Both the position numbers and the translations under genes were made by a program. From NCBI RefSeq assembly GCF_035987325.1, contig NZ_CP108488.1:8494001-8558000 (forward strand): DNA of 64,000 nt, given 5' to 3'. Positions 1 to 21,996 of the stretch are shown here, piece by piece (positions within the stretch are counted from its first letter, which is position 1; every line of letters begins with the position of its first letter). Source of the stretch: Streptomyces sp. NBC_01244. Lineage in GTDB: Bacteria; Actinomycetota; Actinomycetes; Streptomycetales; Streptomycetaceae. The notes below the pieces were generated by a model, which was not told where the DNA came from, ran no database searches, and was given only the letters and a program-made list of their open reading frames with translations.

Positions 1-655
1 AGAAGCCCGCCACGGAGCCCCGTACCCGGTCCCCGGCGTGCGGCTCCACCTTCTTGATCATGTGCGGTACGCCCGACCGCAGGACGACCAGCCGGTTGGG
101 GTGCGGGGCGAGGTAGTGACCGACCCGCGAGGTGAGGTGGGCGTTCTGGTCGGCGGACCGCGACCCGGGTGTTCCGCTGGAGACGAGCAGTTCGGCGCCC
201 CAGGAGGCCTGCCACTCGGGGTGCACGTAGAGCACGAACGAGGCGGCCCGGTCGCCGGAGTCGTCGTGCCAGGCCAGTCCGGAGCCCTGCGGGTAGAGGA
301 AGGGGCGGCAGGTGAAGGCGTGCCAGTCCGTTCCGAACCGCCCGGTCCACGGCTCGATGCGGGGTGCCTCCTCGGCCAGTTGCTTCACCACGGCGTCGGT
401 CGCCCCGCCGGACGGGTGCGGAGCGTGGTCGGCGAAGAGTCCCGTGAAGTGGCCTTCCGGGTCGTTCAACGTGCCGGGCCCGCTGAGGGGACTGCCGTCC
501 AGCAGCCCGTAGACCTTGTTCCACGCCCCGTCCCGGCGTCCGTGGACGAAGTGGTAGTCCTCGGTGCGCAGTTGCTCCCACAGCGCGGCTGCGACCTCTG
601 GGGCGAGGAAGTCGTCGAAGACGGCGAAGTCATCCGTGCTCCAGGTCAGTTCCAT
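1..655 (-). CDS. 2-oxoglutarate/Fe(II) oxygenase (3' end beyond window)
   Basis: Read directly from the minus strand: 218 residues are visible and the frame runs off the window edge. It starts at ATG 655 behind GGAGG about 8 nt upstream. The double-stranded beta-helix iron site is visible: His130-x-Asp132 (in AWHDDSG), a distal His198 (GVPHMIKK) and an Arg near 210-212 (RVRGS) suited to binding 2-oxoglutarate. The fold resembles the prolyl-4-hydroxylase superfamily. It follows the B12 radical SAM gene by 82 nt in the same direction, so it is probably the last tailoring enzyme of the RiPP operon, hydroxylating or desaturating the peptide. The substrate is inferred from context only. Confidence 0.8.
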   Translation of the reverse strand, partial: MELTWSTDDFAVFDDFLAPEVAAALWEQLRTEDYHFVHGRRDGAWNKVYGLLDGSPLSGPGTLNDPEGHFTGLFADHAPHPSGGATDAVVKQLAEEAPRIEPWTGRFGTDWHAFTCRPFLYPQGSGLAWHDDSGDRAASFVLYVHPEWQASWGAELLVSSGTPGSRSADQNAHLTSRVGHYLAPHPNRLVVLRSGVPHMIKKVEPHAGDRVRGSVAGF

Positions 656-737
656 GGGTGTGTCCTCCGTGGACGGGGAAGGGGCGGTACGGGAGGGGAG
701 GGAAGGGGTGGGGAGGGGGCGGGCGGGGCGGGCGCGG

Positions 738-2411
738 TCAGGCTCCGGCGGTCTGGAGTCCCCCGGTGCCCACCGGGACGGGTGGCCGTGCGGCCGCCTC
801 CCGGAGCAGTCGCTGCGTCATGCCCGCCGCCCGCGCGTCGGCCGAGCCCAGCACCAGCCGCAGCATCTCGGCCGCGGGCCCCGAACGGCCGTGCGCGAGG
901 TGCACGGTGGCCACGTTGAGGGGGCGCAGCCAGTCAGGCTGCCGGGCCTCCTTCACCGGCCCCTCGTCGATGAAGGTCACTCCGGGGCAGTCGGACAGCC
1001 GGTCGGATAGGTGGGCCGCCAGCTCCCGGGGCGGCATCGGCTCGCAGTACACCAGCGGTGTCAGCAAGTCGGCCGCGGAGACGGTACGGGGACCGGCGCC
1101 ACCGGTCGGGGAGAGCGGCCCGTTCGCCCGGTACAGGTGCCGTGGGTCGAGAGGGGTGCGGGCCAGCGGGGTGTGCGGGTAGACCCGGAGCCCGCAGGAA
1201 TAGCCCACCGACACGCCCCGGTCGGCCAGTCGGCGGATGTGGCGGATCGCGTTGTCCAGGGTGGCGGCCGTCTCGCCGGGCTGGCCCAACAGCACCCCGA
1301 TCTGAACGTCCATCCACTCCGGCCGACGCCGCAGCAACAGACCGAAGGTGTCCTCGACGTCGGACATCCGGTAGTTCTTGTGGTGCCCGCGCAGCATCCG
1401 GTCGTCGAAGGCGTCCACCGAGAAACTCGGACGCACGCAGCGGGACCGGATCAAGGCGTCCATCAGCCGCTCGGAGAACGGCCTCACGTTGAAGTAGCCG
1501 TGCCAGCTGATCACTTCGCCGTGGCGGCTTCCGGCCAGGGCCTCGCACACCTCGGTCAGCGCCCCCTCGTAGGGGAGGTTGACCTCGGGGGCGGCCAGAT
1601 GGAAGTGGGTCAATCCGTACTGCTCGACGTAGTGTTCCGCCTCGGCGGCGACGGCGTGGGCGGGGCGTGCGTCCACCCTGCCGACGTTCAGCGGATCGAC
1701 GCAGTACGAGCAGCGCAGCGGGCAGCCCGCGTGGCTGCGCAGCGCGGTGGGGATGCCCCGGGCCTTGGCGAAGAGCACGTACTCCGGTGCGATCCGCGGC
1801 AGCGCGGTGGTGGGCCGGGACACCACGTCGGGCCGCGGCCGCAGGCCGGGCCCCAGGGCTCCGTCGGCGGCGCGCACCAGCCCGCCGGGGAGCGTGGACA
1901 GCGTCTCGGCGACCACCTGCCGCACGCCCCGTGTACCGCCGTCGGCGACCACGCGCGCCAGCAGGGCGGTGAACGCGGTCTCACCGGGACCGGTGAGGCC
2001 GAAGTCCAGTCCGAGCCGGTCCATCACCTCCACCGGGCAGGAGGTGAAGGCCGCGCCGCCCGCCACCACCGGCAGGCCGGGGTCCCAGGCGCGCAGCGTG
2101 GCGGTCAGCTCGGAGATGGGCGCCAGATAGTCCACCACGTCGATCCAGCGCCCGTCCGCGCCGGCCGCCGTGTCGCAGGCGACCACGGCGTTGTCGATGT
2201 TGCGGATAGACAGTGCGACGAGGTCGGGCCGGGCCCGGTCGAGGACCTCGGTCAACAGGCCGGTGTGGTCGAGCGATTCGAGGAACGGGTTGCACACGGA
2301 CACCTCGACCGGCAGTCCGCTTTCGGTGATCGCGGCCCGCAGGATCTCCAGTCCGTACGGGCCGACCGGCAGGACCTGGTGGGGGTTTGCGTAGAGCAGG
2401 AGGACGCGCAC
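738..2411 (-). CDS. B12-binding-domain radical SAM enzyme
   Basis: 557 residues, GTG start with only a weak upstream purine tract. The N-terminal ~200 residues form a Rossmann-like B12-binding-type domain. The radical SAM motif is CPLRCSYC (Cys230, Cys234, Cys237). The layout matches cobalamin-dependent class B radical SAM enzymes, which often methylate unreactive carbons or rearrange Trp, but I cannot see a classic DxHxxG cobalamin motif, so cobalamin may bind base-off without a His ligand. It lies 64 nt downstream of the cyclase/ATPase regulator and upstream of the 2OG oxygenase. A role as C-methylase or other carbon-centred modifier of the precursor is inferred from the neighbourhood. Confidence 0.85.
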   Translation of the reverse strand: MRVLLLYANPHQVLPVGPYGLEILRAAITESGLPVEVSVCNPFLESLDHTGLLTEVLDRARPDLVALSIRNIDNAVVACDTAAGADGRWIDVVDYLAPISELTATLRAWDPGLPVVAGGAAFTSCPVEVMDRLGLDFGLTGPGETAFTALLARVVADGGTRGVRQVVAETLSTLPGGLVRAADGALGPGLRPRPDVVSRPTTALPRIAPEYVLFAKARGIPTALRSHAGCPLRCSYCVDPLNVGRVDARPAHAVAAEAEHYVEQYGLTHFHLAAPEVNLPYEGALTEVCEALAGSRHGEVISWHGYFNVRPFSERLMDALIRSRCVRPSFSVDAFDDRMLRGHHKNYRMSDVEDTFGLLLRRRPEWMDVQIGVLLGQPGETAATLDNAIRHIRRLADRGVSVGYSCGLRVYPHTPLARTPLDPRHLYRANGPLSPTGGAGPRTVSAADLLTPLVYCEPMPPRELAAHLSDRLSDCPGVTFIDEGPVKEARQPDWLRPLNVATVHLAHGRSGPAAEMLRLVLGSADARAAGMTQRLLREAAARPPVPVGTGGLQTAGA

Positions 2412-2475
2412 GGGCGGCTGCTTTCTCGGAGTTCCCCCGGAGGGGACGGGTCGTGCGGTGGGGCGGTGCGTACGG

Positions 2476-5400
2476 CTATGCCTGCGGGGCGCGCACGCCC
2501 AGGTCCTGTTTGGCTTCGATGGCCCGCTGGAGCGCGGTCAGCGCACGCCCGGCCACCGGGAGGCCGGTACGGCCGGCGAGGACGGCACTGAAGAGCAGCG
2601 GTGTGATCACCGCGCCGCTGCCGCGCACCTTGCCCAGATGGCGGACCACGGCGTCCAGGTGCGTCGCGGCCGGATCCGGGTCGCCGGCCCGCAACGCCCG
2701 TACGGCGCGGGCCTGCAGGGCGACGGTGTACTCCGCCCAGGCCTCGGGGGGCGGAACGGCCACCTCGTCGAGCCCGGGCCCGCCCCGCGCGCCGCCGGAC
2801 CGTCCCTCACCGGACGCCTCCCGGGCCAGTTCGGCCTGGAGGCGGGACAGCGAGGCCTGGCGGACCATGCCGAGTGCGGCGCAGCGATCGCCCTGGGCGG
2901 TCCACCAGTCGGCCGCGGTGCCCCAGTCGCCGGACCGGGCCGCCAGGACGGCACGCCAGCCCGCGATGGTCGCGGCCCCGGTGCCCTGGCCCAGATCGCG
3001 CAGCACCTCCTCGGCCTCGTCCATCGTGGAGTCGGCCGCCGCCCGGTCGCCGGACATGTGGCGCACCAGCGCCAGCGCGACACCGGTGGCCGAGCTCAGC
3101 AGCCGGGAACCGGCGACCTCCTGATGCAGCCGCTCGCAGTCGGCGAGTGCGGCGGGGACCGGGGTGTCGCCGTTGACCAGGGCCATCGCCAGGTTGGCGT
3201 AGACCTCGGTCAGGCCCAGGCAGGTCCCGGCGCCGTCGGCCGACCGCAGCGCGGAGCGCAGCGCCCGCTCGGCGGCGGGGTGGTCGCCTGCCCGCAGGGA
3301 CTGGAGCCCGGCGTACAGATGGGCCCCGACCCGGGCCTCGGGCTCCGGGGAGGCGACCGCGGCGAGGTAGTGCGGATCGTCCGGTACGGCGGGCGCGTCG
3401 CCGGTCAGATAGGTGCGGGAGTACAGCGAGTTGAGCCGGGCGTGGATCCGGGCGGCCGGGGCGGCCCGGCCCTGGGCCGACAGCACGCGCTCGACGCGTT
3501 CGAGGGCGGCCTGCGGCATTCCCTGGGTGCCGAGGGCGTACGCCTCCAGGACATCCAGGTCGTGGCCCTGTGCGCGGTCCGCCTCCGCCAGTGCGCGGGC
3601 GCGTCCGGTGAGCGTCAGCACCAGTTCGGGTCGCCCACGGGAGAGGGCGAAGCGGGCGGCGACGCCGAAGGCGGTCACGGCGGACTCGGCGGCCCGGGCC
3701 GTCCGGTCGGAGCCGGGCTCCACCCCGCGCAAGGCGGTGTGCGTCGCCTCCCAGTGCCGGGCCAGCAACTCGGCGACGGCGGGGCGCCGTTCGGCCACCG
3801 GTTCCAGGGACCGTGCGAGCCTGGCGTGCACGTCGGCGGTCTCGGAGAGCGTCAGCCGCCGCAGTGCTACCTCGGCCACGACCGGAAAGGCCGGGGCCAG
3901 GCGGCCCTTGTGGGCGTCGGCGGACTCCACCAGCCCGGCTTCGAGGAGGCGGGCCGCGGCCGCGGCGACCCTGTCGGGGTCCATCAGGGCGCCCAGGTCT
4001 TCCAGGGACAGGTCCCGGCCGGCGGCGGCGAGCAGCACCAGGAGTTCCCGTGAGTCGGTGTCCAGCTCGTCCAGCAGGGCACCGAGCGCGGCGTGCGCGC
4101 TGGGTGGCGCCCAGTCGTCGCCGGGCTGGGCGAAGCGGCTCAGGACGACCATCTGTTCGATGTACCGGGGGATGCCGCCGGCCCGGGAGGCGATCTCCTC
4201 CGCGGCGGAGCCGGGGGTGAGTGCGGCGGCGGGGGCCGGGTCGTGTCCAGGGGCCCCGGTGCCGGTGGACCGGGGGCGGTCGGCGGCGGCCGGGTCGTGC
4301 TGCGCGGTGAGCAGCCGGTGGGCGAGGCGCCGCGCGTCGGGCCGTCCGAGGGGCGGCACGGTGAGCCGGTGGGCCTCCCGGCCGGCGAGAGCCTCGGGGG
4401 CCGAGACTCCGACCAGCAGCACCACGACGGGCCGCCCCGGCGCGGCGGTCAGTTCGTCGAGCAGATCGGCCAGTGCCCCGGGGGTCCACTCGCTGTGCTC
4501 GACCACCAGAAGCAGGGGCCGCGCGCCCCGCAGGCGGTCCAATGCCGCGGTGAGCGCACGGCCCAGCTCGCCGCGGTCCTGGGCCAGGGCCTGCTCGGCG
4601 CGCGTGGAGGCGCCGGTCAACTGCACCGTCACGTCCACCCTGTCGTGGCCCTGACGTGCGGCGTTCTCGATCTCCTCCAGGAACAGACAGCAGGCCAGCA
4701 GGCCGAGTCCGGTCCCGGCGGGCGGGCAGCGCAGGACGGCTGTGGCCAGGCCGGTGCAGCGGTCGAGGGCCTCGGTGACCAGCCGGGACTTGCCCACCCC
4801 GGAGGGGCCCCCGACCAGGATCAGGGTCGGACCGGTGGCAGTGGCGGCCGCGCCGATACGGGCGGCCAGCTCGCCGACCAGGTCGGTCCGTCCGACGGTG
4901 CCCGTGCCGGGGGCCTGGGTGTCGGCCGGACCGACGATCCAGGCCGGGACGGACCGGGCGAAGCCCTTGGCCGCGACCGGTTCGATCGCCCGCAGCGGGA
5001 AGTGGTCCTGCAGTTGGAGCCGGGTGGCCAGGTCCACGATCACCCCGTCGTCGGGGGCGTGCTGCTGGAGCCGGGCGGCCCGGTTGAGCACCGAGCCGAT
5101 GACGAAGCTCGACGTCCGGCCGCTGACCGCGACATGGCCGGAAGCGACCGCGGACCGCACCGGGAAGTCGCCCAGCAGCAGCTCGCCCAGGCCCCGTGCG
5201 TACTCGCCGGTGCGGTGCCCGATCGCGGTGGCGGCGGAGACGGCGGAGGCGGCGGCCGACTCGCCGTGCCCCTCGACGCCGAACACGGCGACGACCGCGT
5301 CGCCGATGAACTTCTCCACCTTGCCGCCGTAACCCTCCACCAGCGAGCCGACCAGGGAGAAGTAGCCGTCCAGGACGGCCGCCCACCGGTCGGGTTCGAG

Positions 5401-5595
5401 GGAGGTGGCCAGCCCGGTGGAGCCGACCACGTCGCAGAAGACGACGGAGACGAAGCGCAGACCGCTGGCGGGAGTGGCGGGTAGGCCGATCTCCATCCCG
5501 CAGGCCATGCAGAAGCGGGCCGCCGACGGGTTGTCCACACCACAGCCGGCGCACTGGCTCGCGGTGGATACGATGGGACCGGTGGGCTTGCTCAT
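2476..5595 (-). CDS. Zinc-ribbon / class III nucleotide cyclase / AAA ATPase / TPR regulator
   Basis: 1039 residues, ATG start with GGAGGACAGT upstream. Order of parts: a zinc ribbon (Cys15, Cys18, Cys29, Cys32); a class III adenylate/guanylate cyclase catalytic domain (~45-230) with metal-binding Asp55 (VVFCDVVGST) and Asp99 (FIGDAVV); an AAA-type ATPase with Walker A GGPSGVGKS near residue 260; and a long TPR-like helical C terminus rich in Ala/Leu. The architecture is a known large signalling-ATPase family in actinomycetes. It sits inside the RiPP operon just beyond the post-precursor hairpin, so it may tune cluster expression, possibly through cyclic nucleotide. No DNA-binding domain is obvious, so output is uncertain. 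Confidence 0.85.
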   Translation of the reverse strand: MSKPTGPIVSTASQCAGCGVDNPSAARFCMACGMEIGLPATPASGLRFVSVVFCDVVGSTGLATSLEPDRWAAVLDGYFSLVGSLVEGYGGKVEKFIGDAVVAVFGVEGHGESAAASAVSAATAIGHRTGEYARGLGELLLGDFPVRSAVASGHVAVSGRTSSFVIGSVLNRAARLQQHAPDDGVIVDLATRLQLQDHFPLRAIEPVAAKGFARSVPAWIVGPADTQAPGTGTVGRTDLVGELAARIGAAATATGPTLILVGGPSGVGKSRLVTEALDRCTGLATAVLRCPPAGTGLGLLACCLFLEEIENAARQGHDRVDVTVQLTGASTRAEQALAQDRGELGRALTAALDRLRGARPLLLVVEHSEWTPGALADLLDELTAAPGRPVVVLLVGVSAPEALAGREAHRLTVPPLGRPDARRLAHRLLTAQHDPAAADRPRSTGTGAPGHDPAPAAALTPGSAAEEIASRAGGIPRYIEQMVVLSRFAQPGDDWAPPSAHAALGALLDELDTDSRELLVLLAAAGRDLSLEDLGALMDPDRVAAAAARLLEAGLVESADAHKGRLAPAFPVVAEVALRRLTLSETADVHARLARSLEPVAERRPAVAELLARHWEATHTALRGVEPGSDRTARAAESAVTAFGVAARFALSRGRPELVLTLTGRARALAEADRAQGHDLDVLEAYALGTQGMPQAALERVERVLSAQGRAAPAARIHARLNSLYSRTYLTGDAPAVPDDPHYLAAVASPEPEARVGAHLYAGLQSLRAGDHPAAERALRSALRSADGAGTCLGLTEVYANLAMALVNGDTPVPAALADCERLHQEVAGSRLLSSATGVALALVRHMSGDRAAADSTMDEAEEVLRDLGQGTGAATIAGWRAVLAARSGDWGTAADWWTAQGDRCAALGMVRQASLSRLQAELAREASGEGRSGGARGGPGLDEVAVPPPEAWAEYTVALQARAVRALRAGDPDPAATHLDAVVRHLGKVRGSGAVITPLLFSAVLAGRTGLPVAGRALTALQRAIEAKQDLGVRAPQA

Positions 5596-5622
5596 ACTGT
5601 CCTCCCCGTTCGCTGAGCGACC

Positions 5623-5665
5623 ACCGGGTGGTTCACGACGTTTGCCCCGTCGTGAACCACCCGGT
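5623..5665 (-). terminator. Perfect 18-bp hairpin after the precursor gene
   Basis: Arms at 5623-5640 and 5648-5665 are perfectly complementary across 18 bp, with a 7-nt loop (5641-5647). The left arm begins ACCGGGTGGTTC. The hairpin starts 58 nt past the precursor stop and ends about 28 nt before the cyclase start. No U-tract follows, as is usual in Streptomyces. It could be a partial terminator or a 3' RNA stabiliser that makes precursor mRNA more abundant than downstream message, a common RiPP arrangement. Confidence 0.8.
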
Positions 5666-5722
5666 CTGTGCTACGGCCCAGACGTCACCGGTCCGGGGCC
5701 GATCCCCTGACGAGGGTCGGCA

Positions 5723-5920
5723 CTACCAGAGGTAGCCGCCGCTGGGGTCGGAGACCGAGTGCCCCTCGACGTCCGAACCCGCGGCCTCGACCCGGGACTT
5801 GACGCTCAGCAGGACGTCGATCTCGTCCTCGGTGAGGGACTTGAGCACCGCCTGCTGGGCGTCGTTGGCGTCGGTCATGGAGAAACCGGCTTCGGCCAGC
5901 TTGTCGATCTTGTCTGCCAT
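5723..5920 (-). CDS. RiPP precursor peptide candidate (Cys-free, C-terminal YLW)
   Basis: 65 residues, ATG at 5920 preceded by GAGGAG with 6-nt spacing. Residues 1-45 look like an acidic helical leader (MADKIDKLAEAGFSMTDAND..., then LTEDEIDVLLSVKSR). The last ~17 residues (GHSVSDPSGGYLW) are Gly/Ser-rich and end in Tyr63-Leu64-Trp65, a plausible core. There are no cysteines. From memory and unverified, the leader resembles the small proteins NCBI calls 'aroma-sacti cluster' proteins. Enzymes for peptide modification surround it and a strong hairpin follows it. The frame is continuous with the upstream MFS gene, so it could also be made as the transporter's C terminus; the strong internal start argues for a free peptide. 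Confidence 0.75.
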   Translation of the reverse strand: MADKIDKLAEAGFSMTDANDAQQAVLKSLTEDEIDVLLSVKSRVEAAGSDVEGHSVSDPSGGYLW

Positions 5921-7303
5921 GGTGATCTCCTCGGTTGACGAGCCCGCGCGTTTCACGGACGGGGCTCTGGTTTCCCGGTGCGGTGCACCGGAGTTCAGGG
6001 GGGCCGGGCGGGGCGTCGGCTCCGCGGCCCGGCCGGCACCGTCGTCCGCGCCGGACTTCGGAGCGCCGGACTTCGGAGCGGTGGGCGGCTGAGCGGTGGG
6101 CGGTACGCGGCCGAGCCGGACGGCGACCACGGCGGCGGTGAGCAGAAGGGCGGCACCCGCCAGCAGTAGCAGGCTTCCGAGCCCGATCCACACGACCAGG
6201 GCCGCCGCCAGCACGGGGGCCAGTACGTTCAGTACGGCCGGCACGGAATTCATGAGCGCCCAGACCCTGCCGGTCAGTTCGACCGGCGTCTCGGAATGTA
6301 CGACGCTGGGAAAAGTGACGAGGATTCCGGCGCTTGCTATTCCCAGAAGGAAAATAACACACAGCCATATGGTGGAGTCAATGCGTATTTCATGGAAAAT
6401 GGCGAATCCGATGAAGGTGACGATGCAGCCGATCACCAGGACCGACCCCGCCATGGTGAGGAAAGGCCGAAGGCGTGCCGCGAAACGGCCCATGAGCAGC
6501 GAACCGGCGACCCCGCCCAATCCGACGGCGGACACCATGTAGCCGATGTAGGACGTGCCCATTCCCAGAGCCGGCACGATCAGAGCGGCCATGGAGTCAT
6601 AAAGGAAGACGACGAACATCAGGCTGCACATGACGAACAGGAGGGAACGCAGCAGACGTGATCCGAAAACGTGCTGGAATCCTTCCCCCAGTTCTTTGAA
6701 ATAGTGCAGATCTTTACTCCGGGAAGGTGACGACGTGGTGCGCAGGGCGCGGGCGGTGATCACCCCGACGAGAAACGTGCACGCGTTGGCCGCGAACACC
6801 GCCCGGGGCGACATGAGGGCGACCAGCAGGCCACCGAGCGCGGGCCCGAGGATCTTGACCGATTGCATCGCCGTCTGGAGCAGCACGGTGGCGGCCTGGA
6901 CACCCTCGGGCGGTACCGAGACCCGCAACTGGATCTGGCCCGCGAGCCCGCCGACCGAGCCCAGCGCCGAACGGACCAGCACCAGCCCGGCCGCCCAGTA
7001 CACCCCGGGGGCGACCACCAGGCCCAGGGTGAGCCCTGCCTGTACGAGGTCGGTGAGGATCAGCACCCGCCGCGACGGCCGACGGTCCACCAGCACCGCC
7101 AGGAACGGAGTCGCCAGCAGCGGCAGCATGCTCGCGGCCACCACCAGCGCCAGATCGCCCGCGCCGCCGTGCCAGACCGTGGTGACCAGCACCAGCAGCG
7201 CCACCTGGTCCAGCCAGTCGCCCAGACCGGAGACCACCGTGCTGGTGTACAGCAGCCGGAAGTCGCGGCCCGCCAGCGGGCCCGGAACCCGCGCGCGACT
7301 CAT
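5723..7303 (-). CDS. MFS exporter whose frame runs into the precursor
   Basis: ATG at 7303 overlaps the upstream oxidase stop as ATGA, implying coupling. Residues 1 to ~395 are a 12-helix major facilitator protein (GDWLDQVALLVLV, then a VDRRPSRRVLI cytoplasmic loop) of the type used to export peptides or antibiotics. Residues ~400-461 are a Pro/Ala/Gly linker, and residues 462-526 are exactly the precursor peptide. I checked the junction codons (R-A-G-S-S-T-E-E-I-T-M) and found no stop. Either a fused product is made as well as the free peptide, or the transporter stop was lost. Export of the mature peptide is the expected role. Confidence 0.8.
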   Translation of the reverse strand: MSRARVPGPLAGRDFRLLYTSTVVSGLGDWLDQVALLVLVTTVWHGGAGDLALVVAASMLPLLATPFLAVLVDRRPSRRVLILTDLVQAGLTLGLVVAPGVYWAAGLVLVRSALGSVGGLAGQIQLRVSVPPEGVQAATVLLQTAMQSVKILGPALGGLLVALMSPRAVFAANACTFLVGVITARALRTTSSPSRSKDLHYFKELGEGFQHVFGSRLLRSLLFVMCSLMFVVFLYDSMAALIVPALGMGTSYIGYMVSAVGLGGVAGSLLMGRFAARLRPFLTMAGSVLVIGCIVTFIGFAIFHEIRIDSTIWLCVIFLLGIASAGILVTFPSVVHSETPVELTGRVWALMNSVPAVLNVLAPVLAAALVVWIGLGSLLLLAGAALLLTAAVVAVRLGRVPPTAQPPTAPKSGAPKSGADDGAGRAAEPTPRPAPLNSGAPHRETRAPSVKRAGSSTEEITMADKIDKLAEAGFSMTDANDAQQAVLKSLTEDEIDVLLSVKSRVEAAGSDVEGHSVSDPSGGYLW

Positions 7304-7998
7304 CCGGCCAGGGCCACCGGGGAGCGCCGGTGGACCCGGCCGAGCACGTCCTCCATCACCTCGATCAGCCCCCTCATGGAGTGCAGCGCGCTCACACCGA
7401 GAAGTTCCTCCTGCGCCGGGTCGAGCGGCAGCCGGTCGATCAGCCGGTGCACGTCGTCGCGGTGCTGCACGTCCAGCTGGGCGTGCCGGGCGATGGTGCG
7501 GAACGCCGCCTCCGGCAGCCCGGTCCGGGCCGCCAGGTCACCGGCCAGCCCGGGACCGGGCGGGTTGCCCTCCAGCACCGCGATGTGCCCCACGAGCGCC
7601 ACCGGATGCGCATGGCGCAGCCAGTAGTACTGCGAGCCGACCAGCGAGGCGATGGCCGCCCCCGGCAGCGCCGTGCGCAGCGTCTCGGGATCACCCCCGG
7701 CCACCACGTAGTCGTCGGCCACCCACTGGTCGTGCCCGTACTCCTCACGGATGTGCTTGGCCAGGTAGCGGCCCACCAGATCGGCCACCGGGTCGTCCTG
7801 ACGGACAGTGCACTGTTCGACGGCCGCCAGCATCAGCGGCACCGTGGCCCGGATCGTCCCGTGCAGCGTCTTGAGCCACTCCAGATACACCTGGTCGCTC
7901 CGCGGATGGGTCCACATCTGCCGGGACGCGGCGTCCACCGCCGGCATCAGCAGCCCGATCTTGTGGCGCAGGGCTTGCGACCTCGTCTGCTCCTCCAC
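7300..7998 (-). CDS. Heme-oxygenase-like diiron oxidase (HDO)
   Basis: About 232 residues from GTG 7998, which lies 2 nt past the upstream radical SAM stop; TTG 8004 is an alternative. All-helical, TenA/PqqC-like size. A full set of candidate iron ligands is visible: Glu61; Glu86-x2-His89 (EEYGHDQW); Glu143 (VLEGN); and His172-x3-Asp176-x2-His179 (RHAQLDVQHRDD). This spacing matches HDO enzymes such as UndA and the central SznF domain, which use O2 to cleave C-C bonds or oxidise nitrogen. It does not look like a pure scaffold. Its place between radical SAM genes and the exporter implies peptide tailoring; the reaction cannot be told from sequence. Confidence 0.75.
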   Translation of the reverse strand: MEEQTRSQALRHKIGLLMPAVDAASRQMWTHPRSDQVYLEWLKTLHGTIRATVPLMLAAVEQCTVRQDDPVADLVGRYLAKHIREEYGHDQWVADDYVVAGGDPETLRTALPGAAIASLVGSQYYWLRHAHPVALVGHIAVLEGNPPGPGLAGDLAARTGLPEAAFRTIARHAQLDVQHRDDVHRLIDRLPLDPAQEELLGVSALHSMRGLIEVMEDVLGRVHRRSPVALAG

Positions 7999-8000
7999 CG

Positions 8001-9035
8001 TCAACCGCCTTCCCTCAGGGCCACGCCCAGCGCCGTCACGGAGTCCGCGGCCGGCCCCGGTCGGCCGGCGATGTCGTACGCCTTCCAGCAACCGCCGCAG
8101 ACGTTCTCGAAGCGTTCCTCGCGCAAGGCCTCGAAGCCGGGCAGGTCGGCCGCCGCCCCCGGGCCGAGGCGCCCCACCACCTTGAGCAGCGGATCGTCCC
8201 GGAACCCGGTCAGCGCCTGCGCCACGCCCTCGGGCCGCCGGGTCCGGGCACGCAGCGCGGACGGGCCGTGACCGGTGATCAGCCCCTCGTTGCAGCAGGG
8301 GATCACCACCCCGTCGTAGCGAACAGTGGGCGAGCCGAGCAGGGTGCACGCCGAGAACGTCCCCACCTCGTGCCGGCTCTGGAGGGCGAAGACCCCCGCG
8401 CCCCGCCCGTACCGCAGGGGGGTGATCACGTTCGTCTCCGCCTCGTCGGCCCACCGCGGGCCGAGCGCCTCCGACAGCAGTTCCTCGGCCACCCGCGCGC
8501 CGTCGCCCGTGTCCAGTTCCTGGACGACGATGCGGCAGCCCGCCCGGTGGGCCGCGCGCAGCGCGCCGACGAACCGGTGGTTCGACACACCGCCCTGGTG
8601 GAAGCCGTCCGTGCTCAGGAAGAGCGTGGAGATCCGCGGCAGCAGCCGCCGTACCCAGCCGGGCGCGGAACCGTTCTCGCGCGCCCAGTACCCGCTGGTG
8701 AAGACGATGGTTTCCAGCCCGGCGTCGGCGAACGCCCCGATCGCGTACGGCAGCGCCCGCTGCTCGGCGAAGGGCTCGCCGCCGGATACCGCCACCGACC
8801 GCAGGCCGGGCAGTGCGACGATGCCGGCGACGACGTCGTGGAACACCTCCCAGTCGGCGACCCTGTCACTGTCCGCGCGGGCGTCCACCGAGCAGTGCGC
8901 GCAGCCGACCGGGCACTGGTCGGTGATGTACAGCAGGACCGACTCACCGCGACGGTGGCGCATCGCCTCGGTGTCCGCCAGCGTGGGGCGGTTGCGGACC
9001 GCCTCGCTGTCAGCTCGTGTAGGACGGCTGTTCAC
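8001..9035 (-). CDS. Radical SAM enzyme with SPASM/twitch-like C terminus (second copy)
   Basis: 344 residues, GTG 9035 with GGGAGGAGG upstream, overlapping the preceding radical SAM gene by 26 nt. The core motif is CPVGCAHC (Cys41, Cys45, Cys48), followed by VSGGEPF (the GGE motif). C-terminal cysteines for an auxiliary cluster are present: one in FSACTLLG, a pair in VIPCCNEG, and CxxC in NVCGGC. It shares layout and motif wording with the neighbouring radical SAM protein, so the two look like diverged paralogues that may act in sequence or as partners on the precursor. It lacks an evident N-terminal RRE-like domain. Confidence 0.85.
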   Translation of the reverse strand: MNSRPTRADSEAVRNRPTLADTEAMRHRRGESVLLYITDQCPVGCAHCSVDARADSDRVADWEVFHDVVAGIVALPGLRSVAVSGGEPFAEQRALPYAIGAFADAGLETIVFTSGYWARENGSAPGWVRRLLPRISTLFLSTDGFHQGGVSNHRFVGALRAAHRAGCRIVVQELDTGDGARVAEELLSEALGPRWADEAETNVITPLRYGRGAGVFALQSRHEVGTFSACTLLGSPTVRYDGVVIPCCNEGLITGHGPSALRARTRRPEGVAQALTGFRDDPLLKVVGRLGPGAAADLPGFEALREERFENVCGGCWKAYDIAGRPGPAADSVTALGVALREGG

Positions 9036-10113
9036 GGTCCGCCTCCTCCCATCCGAGGGACACCAGGCCGCCGTAGCGGCCGGAGCGACGGTCCGAGAAG
9101 GCGGTCCCGTCCACCTGCTCGACCATGCGGCGGGCGGCGGCCTCCACCTGCCGACCGGAGTCGCTGCGCAGGTACTCCGTCACCTTCCGCTCGGCCTCGG
9201 CGTCGCCGGACAGCGTGAGGCAGTTGCCGCACATGCCCTTGTCGCACGGTCCGTCCGAGAAGCGGGCGGCCACGAAGCTGGGTCCGAGCACGCGCAGCGC
9301 CCGGTACAACTCGCGGCGCAGGAACTTCTCGCGCAGCTCGGGCCACGACTGGTGGGACGCGTGGCCGAGGATCAGGTGCTCCGGCATGCGGCGCTCCACC
9401 AGGTCCTGGTTGCAACAGGCGTAGACGGTGCCGTCGTAGGTGACCAGCGGCCAGGTGATCCGGTCGCACGGGTCGACGGGCGCGACCGGGACGCCGGAGG
9501 AGGGCGTGGGAGTCAGCCCGCCGAGCTGGCGGCCACGGCCGATCGGACTCAAGGTGCCTACCAGGATGGGCACTTGGTCGTCGAACTCGCGGCGCACATC
9601 GTCGACCAGGCCCTGGAGGTAGGGATCGTCGTCCCCCCGCCCGGTGAGCTGGAAGCTCACCTGCGGCACCAGTTCGCGTATGCGGTGCATCGCCCGGAAG
9701 ACGTCGGCCCGGCCCACCTCGCGTTCGTGGAACTCGTCGAGGCTGGCCGCGAAGTGGTCCACCTCGCGGATCGCCGCGGACACCGGGGCGGGCAGCCGCC
9801 GGCTCTCCCGGGCGAACCACATGCCCGACAGCACGTACGAACGGGAGCCCACGGACCGGGCGGTGCGCGCGAGGTCGGCGACGAGCGCGGCCCGCAGCAG
9901 CGCCTCACCGCCGGACATCAGCAGCAGGTCCGGTCGGGTCTCGTGGTCGAAGGACTCCACGAGCCGACGGAACGGCGTCTCGGGATGCTGTTCGCTGGTA
10001 CTGGAGGAGTCGGTGGAGCAGTGGGCGCACGACAGCGGGCAGCGGCGGGTCAGGGCCAGATAGAGGCCGGCGGCCGGCTTGTTGCGGATGGCGCCGATTT
10101 CCAGCAGGTGCAC
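9010..10113 (-). CDS. Radical SAM/SPASM-like peptide maturase (first copy)
   Basis: 367 residues from GTG 10113, chosen because AAGGGGG lies 7 nt upstream and the GAF gene stops 4 nt before; a longer frame to 10182 has no support. Radical SAM motif CPLSCAHC (Cys25, Cys29, Cys32), then LMSGGEAL. C-terminal cysteines (PCDRIT, ACCNQD, CDKGMCGNC) fit a SPASM or twitch auxiliary iron-sulfur cluster, as in enzymes forming thioether, C-C or C-O links in peptides. The precursor has no Cys, so a thioether is unlikely and an aromatic crosslink is the better guess. Confidence 0.87.
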   Translation of the reverse strand: MHLLEIGAIRNKPAAGLYLALTRRCPLSCAHCSTDSSSTSEQHPETPFRRLVESFDHETRPDLLLMSGGEALLRAALVADLARTARSVGSRSYVLSGMWFARESRRLPAPVSAAIREVDHFAASLDEFHEREVGRADVFRAMHRIRELVPQVSFQLTGRGDDDPYLQGLVDDVRREFDDQVPILVGTLSPIGRGRQLGGLTPTPSSGVPVAPVDPCDRITWPLVTYDGTVYACCNQDLVERRMPEHLILGHASHQSWPELREKFLRRELYRALRVLGPSFVAARFSDGPCDKGMCGNCLTLSGDAEAERKVTEYLRSDSGRQVEAAARRMVEQVDGTAFSDRRSGRYGGLVSLGWEEADREQPSYTS

Positions 10114-10117
10114 GGGA

Positions 10118-10750
10118 TCACCCCCTTCTCGATGACAGGGCGCTGGCGATCTCCTCGAGCGAGGCGAGCGTCCGCGCGGCATTCGGGTCGTCGGTCCTGG
10201 CCAGGTCGGCCACCAGGGTCGTCAGCCGTTCGGCGGCCGCCGCGTGCCGTCCGGCGGGGCCGGGCGGCGGACCCGCCAGCGCCAGGGCCGCCGCGCACTG
10301 GCGCGCCAGCTCCGAGACCAGCTCCAGGACTGAGGTCGCGCTGCGCGTGCCCAGCACCGGGTCGAGCACCTCCAGAACGCCGAAGACGGACCCGTCGGTG
10401 TCCAGCGGCGCGGCGATGATGGCCTTCGGTACCCGGCCGGTGGAGGCCGCGAAGTCCCGGTTGAACTGCGGGTGGTTGTCGAGGTTGTCGGCGATCACCG
10501 CCTCCCCGCTCTGGAAGACCCACCCGGCTATGCCGCTGTAGTCGGGGATGGTCCAGCCCACCAGGCTGTCCTCCCGGGGGTCGGAGATCGCCTCCAGAAC
10601 GAGTGCCTCGCCCGCCGCGTCGTGCAGGAAGACCGACGAGGCGGGAGCGCCGAAGACGAGCCGGGCCAGCCGTACGGTCGAGCGCAACACCTCGTCGCGC
10701 CGGGACAGCGGAGGGCCGCTGAGAGGGGCGTCATGCGCGGGATTCGTCAT
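10118..10750 (-). CDS. GAF-domain protein
   Basis: 210 residues from ATG 10750, which has AAGGAG 6 nt upstream; an extension to 10843 would add a Pro/Arg-rich tract that overlaps the peptidase and is unlikely. Residues ~30-160 form a GAF domain (SSVFLHDAAG..., AGWVFQSGEAVIADN, PLDTDGSVFGVLEVLDP). No output domain is attached, so it may sense a small molecule or redox state, or act as an adaptor for the modification enzymes. The gene overlaps the S8 peptidase by 20 nt, showing tight translational linkage in the RiPP operon. Confidence 0.8.
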   Translation of the reverse strand: MTNPAHDAPLSGPPLSRRDEVLRSTVRLARLVFGAPASSVFLHDAAGEALVLEAISDPREDSLVGWTIPDYSGIAGWVFQSGEAVIADNLDNHPQFNRDFAASTGRVPKAIIAAPLDTDGSVFGVLEVLDPVLGTRSATSVLELVSELARQCAAALALAGPPPGPAGRHAAAAERLTTLVADLARTDDPNAARTLASLEEIASALSSRRG

Positions 10751-11723
10751 GGCCTGCTCCTTCGGCGGATGGCGTGGATGCGGCGGATGCGGCGGACGAG
10801 ACGGGAACGGCGGACGAGACGGGTACGGCGGAAGCGGTGGCATGGGCAGGGTTGGGGGTGCGGGGTGGGTCGGACGCGTCGGTGAAGTTGTCCGAGAGCG
10901 AGGCGAGAACGTGCTTGACCTCGCTCACCGGAAGTTGCGGATGTTTTCCGAGGATGCGGGCCACGAATCCGGTCACATGTGGGGTCGCGAAACTGTTCCC
11001 GGAGAGGAACGAGCGGCCGCCGCCCGTCCAGGGGACCTCGATTCCGACACCGGCCGCGAAGAATTCGACCGGGGGCTGCGGACTGACCTCGATGCGCTCC
11101 GCGTCGGCAACCTCGTGCGACCCGACGGAAATCACCGAGGGAAAGATCCAGGGATAGCTGCGGACCGGGCTGTTGTGCGCCGAGGCCACGATCGCCACGC
11201 GGTTGAAGTACGCCTCGTCCGCGATGTCGTGCAGCGAGGCCTTGAAGTCGCCCTTGCGCGAGGAGAGGCTGAGGTTGACGACTTGGAAGCGCTCCGCCAC
11301 CGCCCAGCGCAGGGCGGCCAGCAGCATGTTGCCGTCGCCCGCGAGTCGCGGCCCCAGGACGCGCACGCTGGTCAGGCTCACGTCCGGTGCGATCCGCCGG
11401 ATGATCGCCGCGCACGCGGTGCCGTGACCGGCGGCGTCGCCCTCGTGGTCCGGGACGATCCGGTAGGTCGGCCGGCCGTCGCCCGCGTCGTCCTGCTCGG
11501 TGCGTTCCACCGTGTACGACCCCTCCAGGGGCCCGATCTCGGGATGGTCCGGCGTGACTCCGCTGTCGATGACGCAGACCCGGATTCCCGCACCGCGCGA
11601 CCCACCCCAGGCCCATTCCCGGTCCACCGCCCCGGAGGCCGCGACGGATGACCGGTCGACGAGTTCCCCGGCATTCATGTGGGCGAACCGGATGGTTGCC
11701 CGACGAAACGCTGTAGTGGTCAA
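10731..11723 (-). CDS. Cytosolic subtilisin-like (S8) peptidase, first gene of the RiPP operon
   Basis: 330 residues from TTG 11723, behind GGAAGG. Full subtilase triad: Asp53 (VCVIDSGV), His100 (GHGTACAAI), Ser244 (SGNSFATPH), with Asn184 as oxyanion residue. There is no signal peptide and no long propeptide, so the protein is likely cytoplasmic. After the catalytic domain (~280) comes a low-complexity Ala/Ser/Pro/Val tail with repeated AVPVSSA. In RiPP clusters such enzymes remove leaders or trim cores, and that is the inferred role. The next upstream gene is beyond a ~300-nt gap, so the operon probably starts here. Confidence 0.85.
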   Translation of the reverse strand: MTTTAFRRATIRFAHMNAGELVDRSSVAASGAVDREWAWGGSRGAGIRVCVIDSGVTPDHPEIGPLEGSYTVERTEQDDAGDGRPTYRIVPDHEGDAAGHGTACAAIIRRIAPDVSLTSVRVLGPRLAGDGNMLLAALRWAVAERFQVVNLSLSSRKGDFKASLHDIADEAYFNRVAIVASAHNSPVRSYPWIFPSVISVGSHEVADAERIEVSPQPPVEFFAAGVGIEVPWTGGGRSFLSGNSFATPHVTGFVARILGKHPQLPVSEVKHVLASLSDNFTDASDPPRTPNPAHATASAVPVSSAVPVSSAASAASTPSAEGAGHDESRA

Positions 11724-15635: not shown

Positions 15636-16745
15636 CTACTTGGCGCCGAGACCGGCGTCGGAAACCTCGGGCTTGCCCGCCGCCTTGAGCACCTTGTTCA
15701 GAAGCCGCAGGTCGTAGATGCCGTTCAGATCGGGCTGCTCGATGAGCTTGGCCTTGACCGCGTGGTCGGCCTGCTTCTTCAGCGTCGCCGCCAGCGGGTC
15801 GTCGGTGACCGTGAAACTCGGCCACGCCGGGTGGATGACCTCCGGGTCGAGAGGCTTGCCGGTGTCCGCCGCGAGCCTGGCGTTCGCGGAGGCCCTTGCC
15901 GCGTCCTGGTGGGAGCGGATCCACCTGTTCGTCTTCACCGTGCCGCGCAGAACGGCCTCGACCACGTCCGGGTGCTCCCTCAGGAACTTCTGCGACACGA
16001 CGATGTTCGTGATCACGAACTTGTTCTCCGGCCAGAGGAAGCCCTCGTCGAGAAGGACCTCGCCGCCCTCGGAGACGAGTTTGGAGGCGGTGGGCTCGGG
16101 CACCCAGGCGCCGTCGATGGAGCCCTGCTTGAAGGCGGCGGGGGTCAGCTTGTTGTCGGTGCGGACAACGGAGACGTCGCCCTTGCCGGACTCCGGATCG
16201 ACCTTCCATCCCTTTTCGGAGATCCAGTTGAGGAACGCCACGTCTTGGGTGTTCCCCTTCTGAGGGGTGGCGATCCTCTTGCCCCTGAGGTCGTCCAGAG
16301 TCTTGATCTTCGCCGGGTTCACCACCAGCTTCACGCCGCCGGAGGCGGAACCGGAGATGATCCGCAGGTTGGACCCCTTGGACTTCACGTAGCCGTTGAT
16401 CGAGGGGGAGGGACCGATGAACCCGATGTCGAGAGAGCCGCCGTTGAGGGCTTCGATCTCGGACGGGCCGGCGTTGAAAGACTGCGCCTTGATCGTGGTG
16501 CCGTTCAGTTCCTCGGCGATCAGGCCCTCCTGGAGACCGACCAGCGCGGTGGCGTGCGTCAGGTTCGGGAAGTAACCGATGCGGACCTCGGAGGCCGACA
16601 GCTTCTTGCCGGCACCGGCGGCGAGGTGCGTCTTGCCGTCCTCCTTCTTCGCCTCGGCAGGGTAGCCGCAGGCCGTGAGTAAAAGAGGAAGCGCCGCCGT
16701 TGCGGCGATGGCTCGCAGGGTGATGTGCGGTCTTGCGGCAGACAC
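15636..16745 (-). CDS. Aliphatic-sulfonate-type ABC substrate-binding lipoprotein (copy A)
   Basis: 369 residues. N-terminal lipoprotein signal with lipobox LLTACG (Cys26), then a mature periplasmic-binding-protein fold of the SsuA/TauA/NMT1 type (GYFPNLTHATALVG, FNAGPSEIEALNGG, FIGPSPSINGY, GAWVPEPTAS). It is expected to capture an organosulfur compound at the membrane surface. No cognate permease or ATPase is visible in the window. A near-duplicate lies at 20884-21996, and both are preceded by a leader peptide and the same promoter elements, so cysteine or sulfate status likely controls them. Confidence 0.9.
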   Translation of the reverse strand: MSAARPHITLRAIAATAALPLLLTACGYPAEAKKEDGKTHLAAGAGKKLSASEVRIGYFPNLTHATALVGLQEGLIAEELNGTTIKAQSFNAGPSEIEALNGGSLDIGFIGPSPSINGYVKSKGSNLRIISGSASGGVKLVVNPAKIKTLDDLRGKRIATPQKGNTQDVAFLNWISEKGWKVDPESGKGDVSVVRTDNKLTPAAFKQGSIDGAWVPEPTASKLVSEGGEVLLDEGFLWPENKFVITNIVVSQKFLREHPDVVEAVLRGTVKTNRWIRSHQDAARASANARLAADTGKPLDPEVIHPAWPSFTVTDDPLAATLKKQADHAVKAKLIEQPDLNGIYDLRLLNKVLKAAGKPEVSDAGLGAK

Positions 16746-18654: not shown

Positions 18655-19371
18655 TCCGGCGTGGTGCTGTCCGTCTCGGGCGTGCGCGGAGTGGACCTCA
18701 CCGTCCGGGCCGGGGAGGTCGTCGGCATCGCCGGCGTCGCGGGCAACGGGCAGAGCGAGCTGATCGAGGCGCTGGCCGGGCTGCGCCCCGTGACCGCCGG
18801 CCGTGTCGAGCTGGCCGGGCGCGACATCACCCACGCGTCACCGGCCGGGCGCCGGACGGCGGGCCTGGCCTACGTACCGGAGGACCGTGCGGTGGGCACC
18901 GCGCCCGCCGCCTCCGTCGCGGAGAACCTGGCGATGGGGCACCACCGGAAATCGCTCGCCACCAGGCACGGACTACTGCGTCCCGCGGCCCTGCGCGCGC
19001 ATGCCCGGTCCCTGATCGAACGCTTCGGCATCAAGGCGCCCTCACCCGGGACCCCGGCGGGCGCCTTGTCCGGCGGCAACCTCCAGAAGCTCCTCGTGGG
19101 CCGTGAACTGGCCCATGAAGCTCCGCTGTTGCTGGTGGAACAACCCACGCGCGGCGTGGACATCGGTGCGATCCAGCAGATCCACGAACAGCTCGTCGCC
19201 TACCGGGACACGGGTCACGCCGTGCTGCTGGTCTCGGCCGAACTCACCGAGATCCGCGGCCTGTCGGACCGGATCCTGGTGATGTACGAGGGCCGGATCT
19301 CGGCCTCCTACACCCGGGACGACGCAGACGAACACACCCTGGGCCTGGCCCTGGCCGGAGCGGAGGTCTGA
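18655..19371 (+). pseudogene. C-terminal half of a nucleoside/sugar ABC ATPase
   Basis: About 238 residues match only the second nucleotide-binding domain of a two-domain RbsA/YufO-type ATPase: VRGVDLTVRAGEVVGIAGVAGNGQSELIEAL (Walker A changed to AGNGQSEL, as usual for this domain), YVPEDRAVG, LSGGNLQKLLVGREL (signature), LLLVEQPTRGVDIGA (Walker B). The first ATPase domain is absent. It begins directly after the MFS stop with no clear start or ribosome site, so it is a truncated relic. It is followed by remnants of both permeases. Confidence 0.75.
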
Positions 19372-19372
19372 C

Positions 19373-19733
19373 ATGAGCACCCTGCCCACCGGCTCCACCG
19401 GCTCCACCGGCTCCACCGGCTCCACCGGCTCCACCGGCTCCACCGGCTCAGCAGCTTGCTCCTGTCCTATCCGGCGGTCTCCTTCGCCTCCTACATGGCG
19501 CGGTATCCGCTGAAGGAACCCGGCTCCGGCCTGCCGCAGACACGGCGGCTGCCCGAAGGCGTGGAACTGCCCGCGCTCGGGCCCCGGCCGGGACCGTCCT
19601 CGCGGCCCTCTTCTTCACGGTCCTGCAGGTCGGAGGCCTGAGTATGGAGCGGGCCACCGAGGTGCCGCGCGAGCTGACCCAGGTGCTCCAGGCCCTGGTC
19701 ATCGTCCCGCTCGCCTCCGGGGCGCGAACGTGA
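19373..19733 (+). pseudogene. Remnant of first ABC permease (nucleoside type)
   Basis: Starts ATG 19373 one base after the ATPase stop with a Gly-Ser-Thr repeat, then loses frame. A recognisable permease tail is left around 19591-19733 ([30 protein letters not shown]...), matching the end of BmpA-associated permeases. Most membrane helices are missing. Frame changes and large deletions make a product very unlikely. Confidence 0.65.
19391..19449 (+). repeat. 9-bp tandem repeat GGCTCCACC
   Basis: Six exact copies (19391-19444) and a partial seventh. In frame from ATG 19373 it would encode Gly-Ser-Thr repeats. It sits at the start of the permease remnant and probably arose by slippage. Confidence 0.9.
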
Positions 19734-20883: not shown

Positions 20884-21996
20884 CTACTTGGCGCCGAGGC
20901 CGGCGTCGGAGACTTCGGGCTGGCCGGCGGCCTTGAGGACCTTGTTGAGGAGCTTGAGGTCGTAGATGCCGCCCAGGTCGGGCTGCTCGATGAGCTTGGC
21001 CTTGACCGCCCACTCGGACTGCGTCTTGAGCGTGGCGGCCAGCGGGTCGTTGGTGAGGAGGATGCTGGGCCATGCCGGGTCGATGACCTTGGCGTCGAGG
21101 GGCTTGCCGCCTTCGGCGGCGAGCTTGGCGTTCGCGGAGGCTTTGGCCTTGTCCGGGTTGGCGTTGATCCAGGCGTTGGTCTTGACGGTGCCGGTGAGTA
21201 CGGCCTCGACGACGTCGGGGTGTTCGGTGAGGAACTTCTGGGACACGATGATGTTCGTGATGACGAACTTCTTGTCGGGCCACAGGGTGGTTTCGTCGAG
21301 GAGGACGGCGCCGCCGTCGGCGACGAGTTTGGAGGCGGTGGGCTCGGGGACCCAGGCGCCGTCGATGGAGCCCTGCTTGAAGGCGTCGGGGGTGACCTTG
21401 TTGTCGGTGCGGACGACGGAGACGTCGCCCTTGCCGGATTCGGGGTCGACCGTCCAGCCCTTTTCGGCGATCCAGTTGAGGAACGCGACGTCCTGGGTGT
21501 TGCCCTTTTGCGGGGTGGCGATCTTCTTGCCCTTGAGGTCGTCCAGGGTTTTGATCTTGGCGGGGTTCACGACGAGCTTGACGCCGCCGGAGGCGGAGCC
21601 GGAGATGATCCGCAGGTTGGAGCCCTTGGACTTGACGTAGGCGTTGATCGAAGGCGAGGGGCCGATGAACCCGATGTCGAGAGAGCCGCCGTTGAGGGCT
21701 TCGATCTCGGAGGGGCCGGCGTTGAAGGACTGCGGCTTGATCGTGGTGGCGCCGAGTTCCTTGGCGATCAGGCCTTCCTGGAGACCGACCAGCGCGGTGG
21801 CGTGGGTCAGGTTCGGGAAGTAGCCGATGCGGACCTCGGAGGCCGACAGCTTCTTCGCGTCGGCGGCGACGTTCGCCTTCGCGGGAGCGTCGTCCTTCTT
21901 CGCGTCGGAACCGTAGCCGCAGGCGGTGAGCAGCAGGGGGAGCGCAGCTGTCAGGGCGATGGCACGCAGGGTGGTGAGCGGTCTTGCGGCAGACAC
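20884..21996 (-). CDS. Aliphatic-sulfonate-type ABC substrate-binding lipoprotein (copy B)
   Basis: 370 residues, lipobox LLTACG, SsuA/TauA-like fold, collinear with copy A over the full length with long identical stretches (for example SEIEALNGGSLDIGFIGPSP). Differences concentrate just after the lipobox and in the C-terminal third (MLGHAGS-side loops), so ligand preference may have diverged. It has its own leader peptide B and promoter dyad upstream, and the Rrf2 gene follows on the same strand further upstream. No transport partners are adjacent. Confidence 0.9.
   Translation of the reverse strand: MSAARPLTTLRAIALTAALPLLLTACGYGSDAKKDDAPAKANVAADAKKLSASEVRIGYFPNLTHATALVGLQEGLIAKELGATTIKPQSFNAGPSEIEALNGGSLDIGFIGPSPSINAYVKSKGSNLRIISGSASGGVKLVVNPAKIKTLDDLKGKKIATPQKGNTQDVAFLNWIAEKGWTVDPESGKGDVSVVRTDNKVTPDAFKQGSIDGAWVPEPTASKLVADGGAVLLDETTLWPDKKFVITNIIVSQKFLTEHPDVVEAVLTGTVKTNAWINANPDKAKASANAKLAAEGGKPLDAKVIDPAWPSILLTNDPLAATLKTQSEWAVKAKLIEQPDLGGIYDLKLLNKVLKAAGQPEVSDAGLGAK

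Follow-up and report, generated by a model that had tools for sequence, protein, structure and literature searches.

A stretch of 64,000 nucleotides from the 10.0-Mb genome of Streptomyces sp. NBC_01244 (hereafter the window; positions 8,494,001-8,558,000 of contig NZ_CP108488.1) appears to carry a real gene cluster for a ribosomally synthesised and post-translationally modified peptide (RiPP). In this cluster, it was found that the reading frame of a major facilitator superfamily (MFS) exporter continues, with no stop codon, into that of the precursor peptide. The precursor belongs to a catalogued leader family, and the other genes encode two candidate epimerases, one candidate methylase, and two candidate oxygen-dependent enzymes. 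The proposed product is a short peptide that would be epimerised, oxidised, and methylated on its tryptophan, and made partly on its own exporter; I give this reading a probability of about 0.55. What was observed directly is which genes are present, that the precursor is conserved, which catalytic residues align, and that exporter and precursor share an open frame; the chemistry is predicted.

As read directly from the DNA, the exporter and the precursor lie in a single open frame of 526 codons on the minus strand (5723..7303). The MFS frame is followed by a linker of about 66 codons and then by the 65-residue precursor (5723..5920, minus strand; MADKIDKL...VEGH-SVSDPSGGYLW), with no stop between them. 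This recurrent frame, which the initial annotation had not noticed, is the newest element of the cluster. Relatives were collected for comparison. An alignment of 30 proteins of the first radical S-adenosylmethionine (SAM) enzyme of the cluster, rSAM1, gave the best 80 of 130 confirmed loci, and 40 further stretches comprised NF045560 (leader family) matches and two rSAM1 matches from a scan of 392 genomes. Hidden Markov models were mapped on these 120 loci and the window, and 106 of them have rSAM1. Some stretches are short, L034 and L114 are one contig, L037 and L105 overlap, and some counts include near-duplicates.

The fused frame was found in group A (the window, S. tanashiensis, Streptomyces sp. 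SID12501, and G598), in group B (L040, L131, and L143), and in group C (L037/L105, L048, and L050). The frame is kept across linkers of 198, 183, and 168 nt, of 345, 270, and 120 nt, and of 126, 120, and 111 nt. Among 24 MFS homologues in the database, the window's own included, 17 end in a precursor and are 482 to 567 residues long, while 7 lack it; sizes of fused-frame proteins include 506, 516, 521, 526, 539, 565, and 567 residues. In a tree of MFS proteins, 28 family members are set apart from four other MFS proteins (100/100). They comprise 19 fused and 9 separate rows, five of the latter (P0141 and P0145-P0148) being scored from protein sequences only, and at least 7 state changes are needed. 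Fused rows stand in different places of the tree (groups A, B, and C, P0142-P0144, P0139, and P0140). This topology would fit an ancestral fusion as well as repeated ones.

Is the fused frame translated? It is possible, at somewhat less than even odds, that the precursor is made as the tail of the MFS protein, modified while tethered to the inner face of the membrane, released by the S8 peptidase, and carried out by the same exporter as a product that contains D-residues and ends in a methylated tryptophan. Alternatively, the shared frame may be an accident of high G+C content, the precursor being translated only from its own ATG, and this has a substantial chance that likewise falls short of one half. 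Several observations weigh against a translated fusion. The internal ATG of the window is preceded at 6 nt by GAGGAG, a Shine-Dalgarno-like sequence. The chance of an open shared frame is about 0.2 per group (1/3 for being in frame, multiplied by 0.36-0.78 for lacking a stop), the excess at third codon positions in the linker is mild, and the database query was the fused protein itself, which favours fused hits. L035 and L082 have distinct genes for exporter and precursor, and P0134 and P0138, which are nested in the wider clade of group A, end before the precursor. Thus, fusion is not required. The ends of P0134 and P0138 match the position of a run of C followed by TGA in the window; judged from the protein sequences, a one-base shift would explain them. 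On the other hand, the frame survives many changes of linker length, although most such changes in the window's clade fall early in the linker. The S. alfalfae sequence contains none of ATG, GTG, and TTG between a GTG at codon -96 and the leader, which begins at about codon -61. Ordinary start codons are thus lacking for 34 codons upstream of this leader, and that precursor may exist mainly or solely in fused form, although an in-frame GTG does stand 35 codons before the leader. A hairpin before the internal start was not significant (z -1.0). Searches of open-licence papers turned up no report of a precursor-transporter fusion, and passages of a graspetide paper show none. If the fusion is translated, RiPP modification and secretion would be coupled on one polypeptide, and the arrangement may deliver the peptide straight to the exporter.

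The precursor family is already catalogued. The leader matches the NCBIfam model NF045560 ('aroma-sacti cluster domain') over the whole profile with 65.2 bits (cut-off 30), while the model of StsA-related sactipeptides, NF045559, gives 26.3 bits, below its cut-off of 75. Of 394 Streptomycetaceae genomes sampled, 87 have an NF045560 match that passes the cut-off, as against none of 14 control genomes. The initial annotation had proposed a RiPP pathway, which the cluster fits, and had named conservation of the precursor beside the enzymes as a test; of the 106 rSAM1 loci, 102 have a precursor match within the stretch. It knew of no described product that uses all these enzymes on one peptide. 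The open-licence papers searched yielded no product of this leader family, no paper for the name 'aroma-sacti' or for the combination of S8, GAF, and cyclase genes described below, and only unrelated papers for the core and leader motifs. Despite its presence in about one fifth of the sampled Streptomycetaceae genomes, the leader family has no product described there.

The name of NF045560 implies sactipeptides, but the precursor of the window has no cysteine among its 65 residues. A sactipeptide reading was rejected, since a thioether to an alpha-carbon requires one, and the 'sacti' label is hereby corrected for this member of the family. StsA is an actinobacterial sactipeptide precursor whose leader is bound by the RiPP recognition element (RRE) protein StsC (PMC12710340). 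An RRE-like protein was not recognised among the ten cluster proteins scanned with NCBIfam and Pfam.

Precursor tails mostly consist of a short glycine-rich motif, an aliphatic residue, and an aromatic residue, as in AGGALF, DAGGVVW, DTVGGFVW, and PSGGYLW. Among 109 tails, 74 end in LF, 15 in VW, and 9 in LW. All 74 tails from loci without rSAM2, the second radical SAM enzyme, end in F, while the 35 tails with rSAM2 end in W (27), F (7), or Y (1). A linked precursor was not found for 5 of 30 rSAM2 rows and 2 of 76 other rows. In an rSAM1 tree of 64 rows, in which rows without rSAM2 had been thinned by half, the latter form one clade (support 100/99). Thus, the association of rSAM2 with a terminal tryptophan, striking as it is, amounts to a single evolutionary contrast. 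Because S. tanashiensis has a relative of the cluster and the core ends in Leu-Trp, phosphoramidon, which is a Leu-Trp compound from that species, was also considered. It was left as a coincidence because the enzymes do not fit, and a literature search on the link returned nothing bearing on it.

The two radical SAM enzymes are candidate epimerases resembling EpeE. rSAM1 (9010..10113, minus strand, GTG start) is EpeE/YydG-like and has EpeE as its first match. Its cluster cysteines are conserved, namely C25, C29, and C32 (CxxxCxxC), C216, C233, C295, and C298. The hydrogen-donating Cys223 of EpeE aligns with C234 of rSAM1, which is present in the window and in 84 of 103 sequences. rSAM2 (8001..9035, minus strand) is a homologue of rSAM1 (hhalign 99.9%), and the equivalent cysteine, C237 in the numbering of the aligned stretch, is invariant in 29 of 29 sequences. 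Some comparisons speak against the assignment. The scores with the YydG equivalog model TIGR04078 are 43.6 (rSAM1) and 28.1 bits, far from the cut-off of 300, EpeE Asp210 aligns with an invariant proline in rSAM1, and a direct search of rSAM2 against EpeE gave a weak 16 bits. A collection of plasmids held one distant rSAM1 relative (23% identity).

The epipeptide system epeXEPAB of Bacillus subtilis is among the nearest comparisons: EpeE and rSAM1 have a common fold, and both rSAM1 and rSAM2 have the equivalent of the catalytic Cys223. The systems differ in other respects. Here, two epimerase-like enzymes stand with an additional haem-oxygenase-like dimetal oxidase (HDO), a B12-binding radical SAM enzyme (B12-rSAM), and a 2-oxoglutarate (2OG) oxygenase, and the proposed core is shorter than the 17-residue EPE of B. 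subtilis. B. subtilis EpeP is anchored in the membrane (PMC12871923), while the S8 peptidase looks cytosolic; the scan of ten cluster proteins recognised no peptidase other than S8, and thus none that is EpeP-like.

The HDO-like protein (7300..8004, minus strand; start at TTG 8004 or GTG 7998) matches PF14518 with 46 bits. Enzymes of this kind bind their metals with about six Glu, Asp, or His ligands. In the window's protein, E86, H89, E143, H172, D176, and H179 are invariant in 37 of 37 sequences. A structure model (pLDDT 96.7) has 3dde, CADD/CT610, HmuO, HrmI, and UndA as best matches in structure searches, which do not test absence. By predicted fold and six candidate ligands, the protein is a candidate dimetal oxidase of the kind of CADD, UndA, and HrmI, to which it is about 14-18% identical, but unlike them it would act on a ribosomal peptide.

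The B12-rSAM protein (738..2411, minus strand) is TsrM-like. TsrM, the tryptophan 2-C-methyltransferase of thiostrepton biosynthesis, is its sole match in the PDB at E 0.01 (86 bits, residues 4-417). TsrM R69, E273, and Y308 (positions counted by hand), which I take to be catalytic, align with R70, E276, and Y306. These residues are retained in the window's clade and in L082, the Nonomuraea deserti locus, whose protein is 43% identical. The precursor ends in tryptophan in every one of five distinct B12-rSAM loci. While 46 of the 392 sampled same-genus genomes have rSAM1 relatives, B12-rSAM occurs in only 3 of the 392, its own included, which are exactly those with an rSAM1 of 95-100% identity. 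This supports membership of B12-rSAM in the cluster. Together, the tryptophan-ending precursors, the co-occurrence with this rSAM1 type, and the TsrM residues suggest that B12-rSAM methylates the single tryptophan of the precursor. The substrate of TsrM is free tryptophan, while that proposed here is a C-terminal tryptophan of a peptide. Two scores count against a TsrM-type function: TIGR04428 (TsrM) gives 114.6 bits, far under its cut-off of 500, and the best NCBIfam score, 128.6 bits, belongs to rSAM_ladder_B12, although it too is below its own cut-off. The initial annotation had counted five oxidative tailoring enzymes. 'Oxidative' is probably wrong for three of them, since the two radical SAM enzymes resemble the epimerase EpeE and B12-rSAM a methylase, which leaves the HDO-like and 2OG enzymes as oxygen-dependent in appearance.

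Under the proposed pathway, the product would come from about 11 residues (SVSDPSGGYLW) at the C-terminus of a precursor built of leader and core. This precursor would be translated as the end of the MFS protein and, probably, also free from the internal start. The EpeE-like enzymes would invert L- to D-residues in the core, and the HDO-like enzyme may then oxidise the peptide, with the aromatic residue at the C-terminus as a possible site. In this clade only, the TsrM-like enzyme would methylate the sole tryptophan and the 2OG enzyme would hydroxylate the peptide. Finally, the cytosolic S8 peptidase would cut near VEGH and the attached exporter would carry the product out, with the GAF and cyclase proteins as presumed regulators. 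With EpeE-like epimerases, a dimetal oxidase, and a TsrM-like methylase assigned to a cysteine-free core of 11 residues, the chemistry can be put to a direct test. It is plausible that all the enzymes act on one peptide, as had been claimed.

Other products may be considered. The radical SAM enzymes could form a C-C or other cross-link, such as a Tyr-Trp cyclophane, and give a cyclic peptide, but this seems unlikely. Mycofactocin derives from Val-Tyr at the C-terminus of MftA, and PqqC has a haem-oxygenase-like fold. By analogy, the aliphatic-aromatic pair with which most tails end (LF, VW, or LW, as counted above) might become a small redox cofactor or signal, for which the wide distribution of the leader domain (87 of 394 genomes) and the regulatory look of the chassis genes, S8, GAF, and CYC, could also be cited. 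However, rSAM1 matches EpeE first, the exporter is attached in several groups, and the scan of ten cluster proteins showed no dehydrogenase, MftB/PqqD-like, or other Mft protein. NCBIfam matches included no Mft family, and the PqqE scores were 18.5 and 21.3 bits against a cut-off of 381. I regard a cofactor as improbable. A third option, in my view of low probability, divides the cluster: the block from S8 to the precursor would make the peptide, and B12-rSAM and 2OG would serve another substrate. A strong hairpin and wider gaps do part the blocks, and B12-rSAM and 2OG lie behind the hairpin and a regulator gene and are missing from most related stretches. However, CYC, itself in the second block, is found in 97 of the 106 rSAM1 loci, the three same-genus genomes that carry B12-rSAM are exactly those with this type of rSAM1, and in L082 B12-rSAM lies upstream of rSAM1. 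The single epimerised, oxidised, and tryptophan-methylated peptide remains the preferred reading.

The cluster spans about 11.7 kb on the minus strand. The first block runs in the order S8 peptidase, GAF, rSAM1, rSAM2, HDO-like oxidase, MFS, and precursor, with genes overlapping or a few bases apart. Past a hairpin, the second block holds CYC, B12-rSAM, and 2OG. All the genes of the initial annotation (S8, two radical SAM enzymes, the HDO-like protein, exporter, 65-codon precursor, B12-rSAM, and 2OG) were confirmed on this strand; GAF and the 1,039-residue CYC had been overlooked. The close packing that it described holds from S8 through the precursor but not in the second block, where a gap of 127 bases between precursor and CYC contains the hairpin, and gaps of 64 and 82 bases follow between CYC and B12-rSAM and between B12-rSAM and 2OG. 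Thus, the single operon is possible rather than established. The hairpin (5623..5665, minus strand) has an 18-bp stem and no T run; a 71-nt stretch around it has a folding energy of -45 kcal/mol (z -5.7), and a hairpin 3' of the precursor is kept in the relatives L033 and L034.

The S8 peptidase (10731..11723, minus strand; start at TTG 11723 or ATG 11678) is subtilisin-like (PF00082, 84 bits) and cytosolic-looking, and is probably the leader remover. The triad motifs VIDSG, GHGTA, and GNSFATP were spotted by eye, and NF049966 (QhpE) gives 110 bits, under the cut-off of 165. The partner gene encodes a single-domain GAF protein (10118..10750, minus strand; PF01590, 54 bits). CYC (2476..5595, minus strand) combines a class III nucleotidyl cyclase (PF00211, 27 bits) with an AAA ATPase (PF13191, 46 bits), both above the Pfam gathering score, with a zinc ribbon below it (PF13240, 17 bits); it is probably a regulator. 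Matches in PADLOC (CYC to Pycsar cyclases, best 37 bits; S8 to a subtilase model, 42 bits) were taken to reflect shared folds. The 2OG-Fe(II) oxygenase (1..655, minus strand) is above the gathering score for PF13661 and PF13640. Its gene extends 32 bases past the window start, for 228 residues in total, and is full length in L002. Beyond it lie a convergent XRE-like gene and then a LuxR-like gene, both assigned by eye from sequence.

The closest named relatives of the cluster are in Streptomyces. S. tanashiensis and Streptomyces sp. SID12501 have counterparts of nine of its genes at 87-97% identity, the short precursor being mapped apart. Of the 106 rSAM1 loci, the same stretch holds HDO in 103, CYC in 97, S8, GAF, and CYC together in 91, and rSAM2 in 30. 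The 91 loci with S8, GAF, and CYC and the 87-97% recurrence place the gene association beyond chance. B12-rSAM (6 loci) and 2OG (5 loci), counts that include the window and take the L034/L114 contig twice, are a rare add-on. GAF lies within 250 nt of S8 in 99 of 101 S8 copies. Among 15 loci without rSAM1, seven (L116, L127, L132, and L135-L138) keep precursor, CYC, S8, and GAF, with other precursor tails (RIG, KLL, or a C-terminal Cys). Radical SAM proteins of other kinds occur in two of the seven, a B12-binding one in L116 and a further one in L135. I read S8, GAF, and CYC as a chassis serving several maturase sets, and a common chassis with swappable maturases provides a handle for genome mining. 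Conversely, loci of a cyanobacterium, Limnobacter, Mesorhizobium, and Burkholderiales (L041, L051, L054, and L076) have precursor, rSAM1, rSAM2, and HDO, the chassis being absent from stretches of about 20 kb. A similar set without chassis was found in L045 (Chloroflexota), on a contig of just 6 kb.

Other arrangements were seen around this leader family. L135-L138 have divergent precursor pairs with a common leader and KLL and C-terminal Cys endings, together with S8, GAF, and CYC, and an open reading frame (ORF) of L135 looks ATP-grasp-like by eye, without a Pfam match. S. alfalfae, S. himastatinicus, and Streptomyces sp. NBRC 110028 (L037, L048, and L050) each have two linked systems: a W-type set of rSAM1, rSAM2, HDO, and an SGAFVW precursor, and, on the opposite strand, chassis genes together with a precursor of F type (IIGGVLF) that is fused to the exporter. 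In L082 (12781-13671), four copies of a tryptophan-ending precursor lie behind the separate MFS gene, in addition to the upstream B12-rSAM. L139, L140, L146, L147, and L151 have the same leader with an IKLA ending, and rSAM1, rSAM2, and HDO are absent from the 20-kb stretch. In these IKLA loci a CYC match lies 8-9 kb away, near the stretch end, so S8 and GAF may fall outside; the neighbours in L139 include two proteins containing DUF6895. Catellatospora tritici (L039, 7.2-9.1 kb) has two S8-GAF pairs in tandem.

Elsewhere in the window, two similar genes for substrate-binding lipoproteins of the ABC type, assigned by eye, lie on the minus strand (15636-16745 and 20884-21996; 369 and 370 residues). 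They are about 4 kb apart, have near-alike beginnings, and apparently result from a duplication. An ORF at 19042-19443 (minus strand) opens with a run of EPV repeats, as a simple repeat in the DNA at about 19.4 kb would give.

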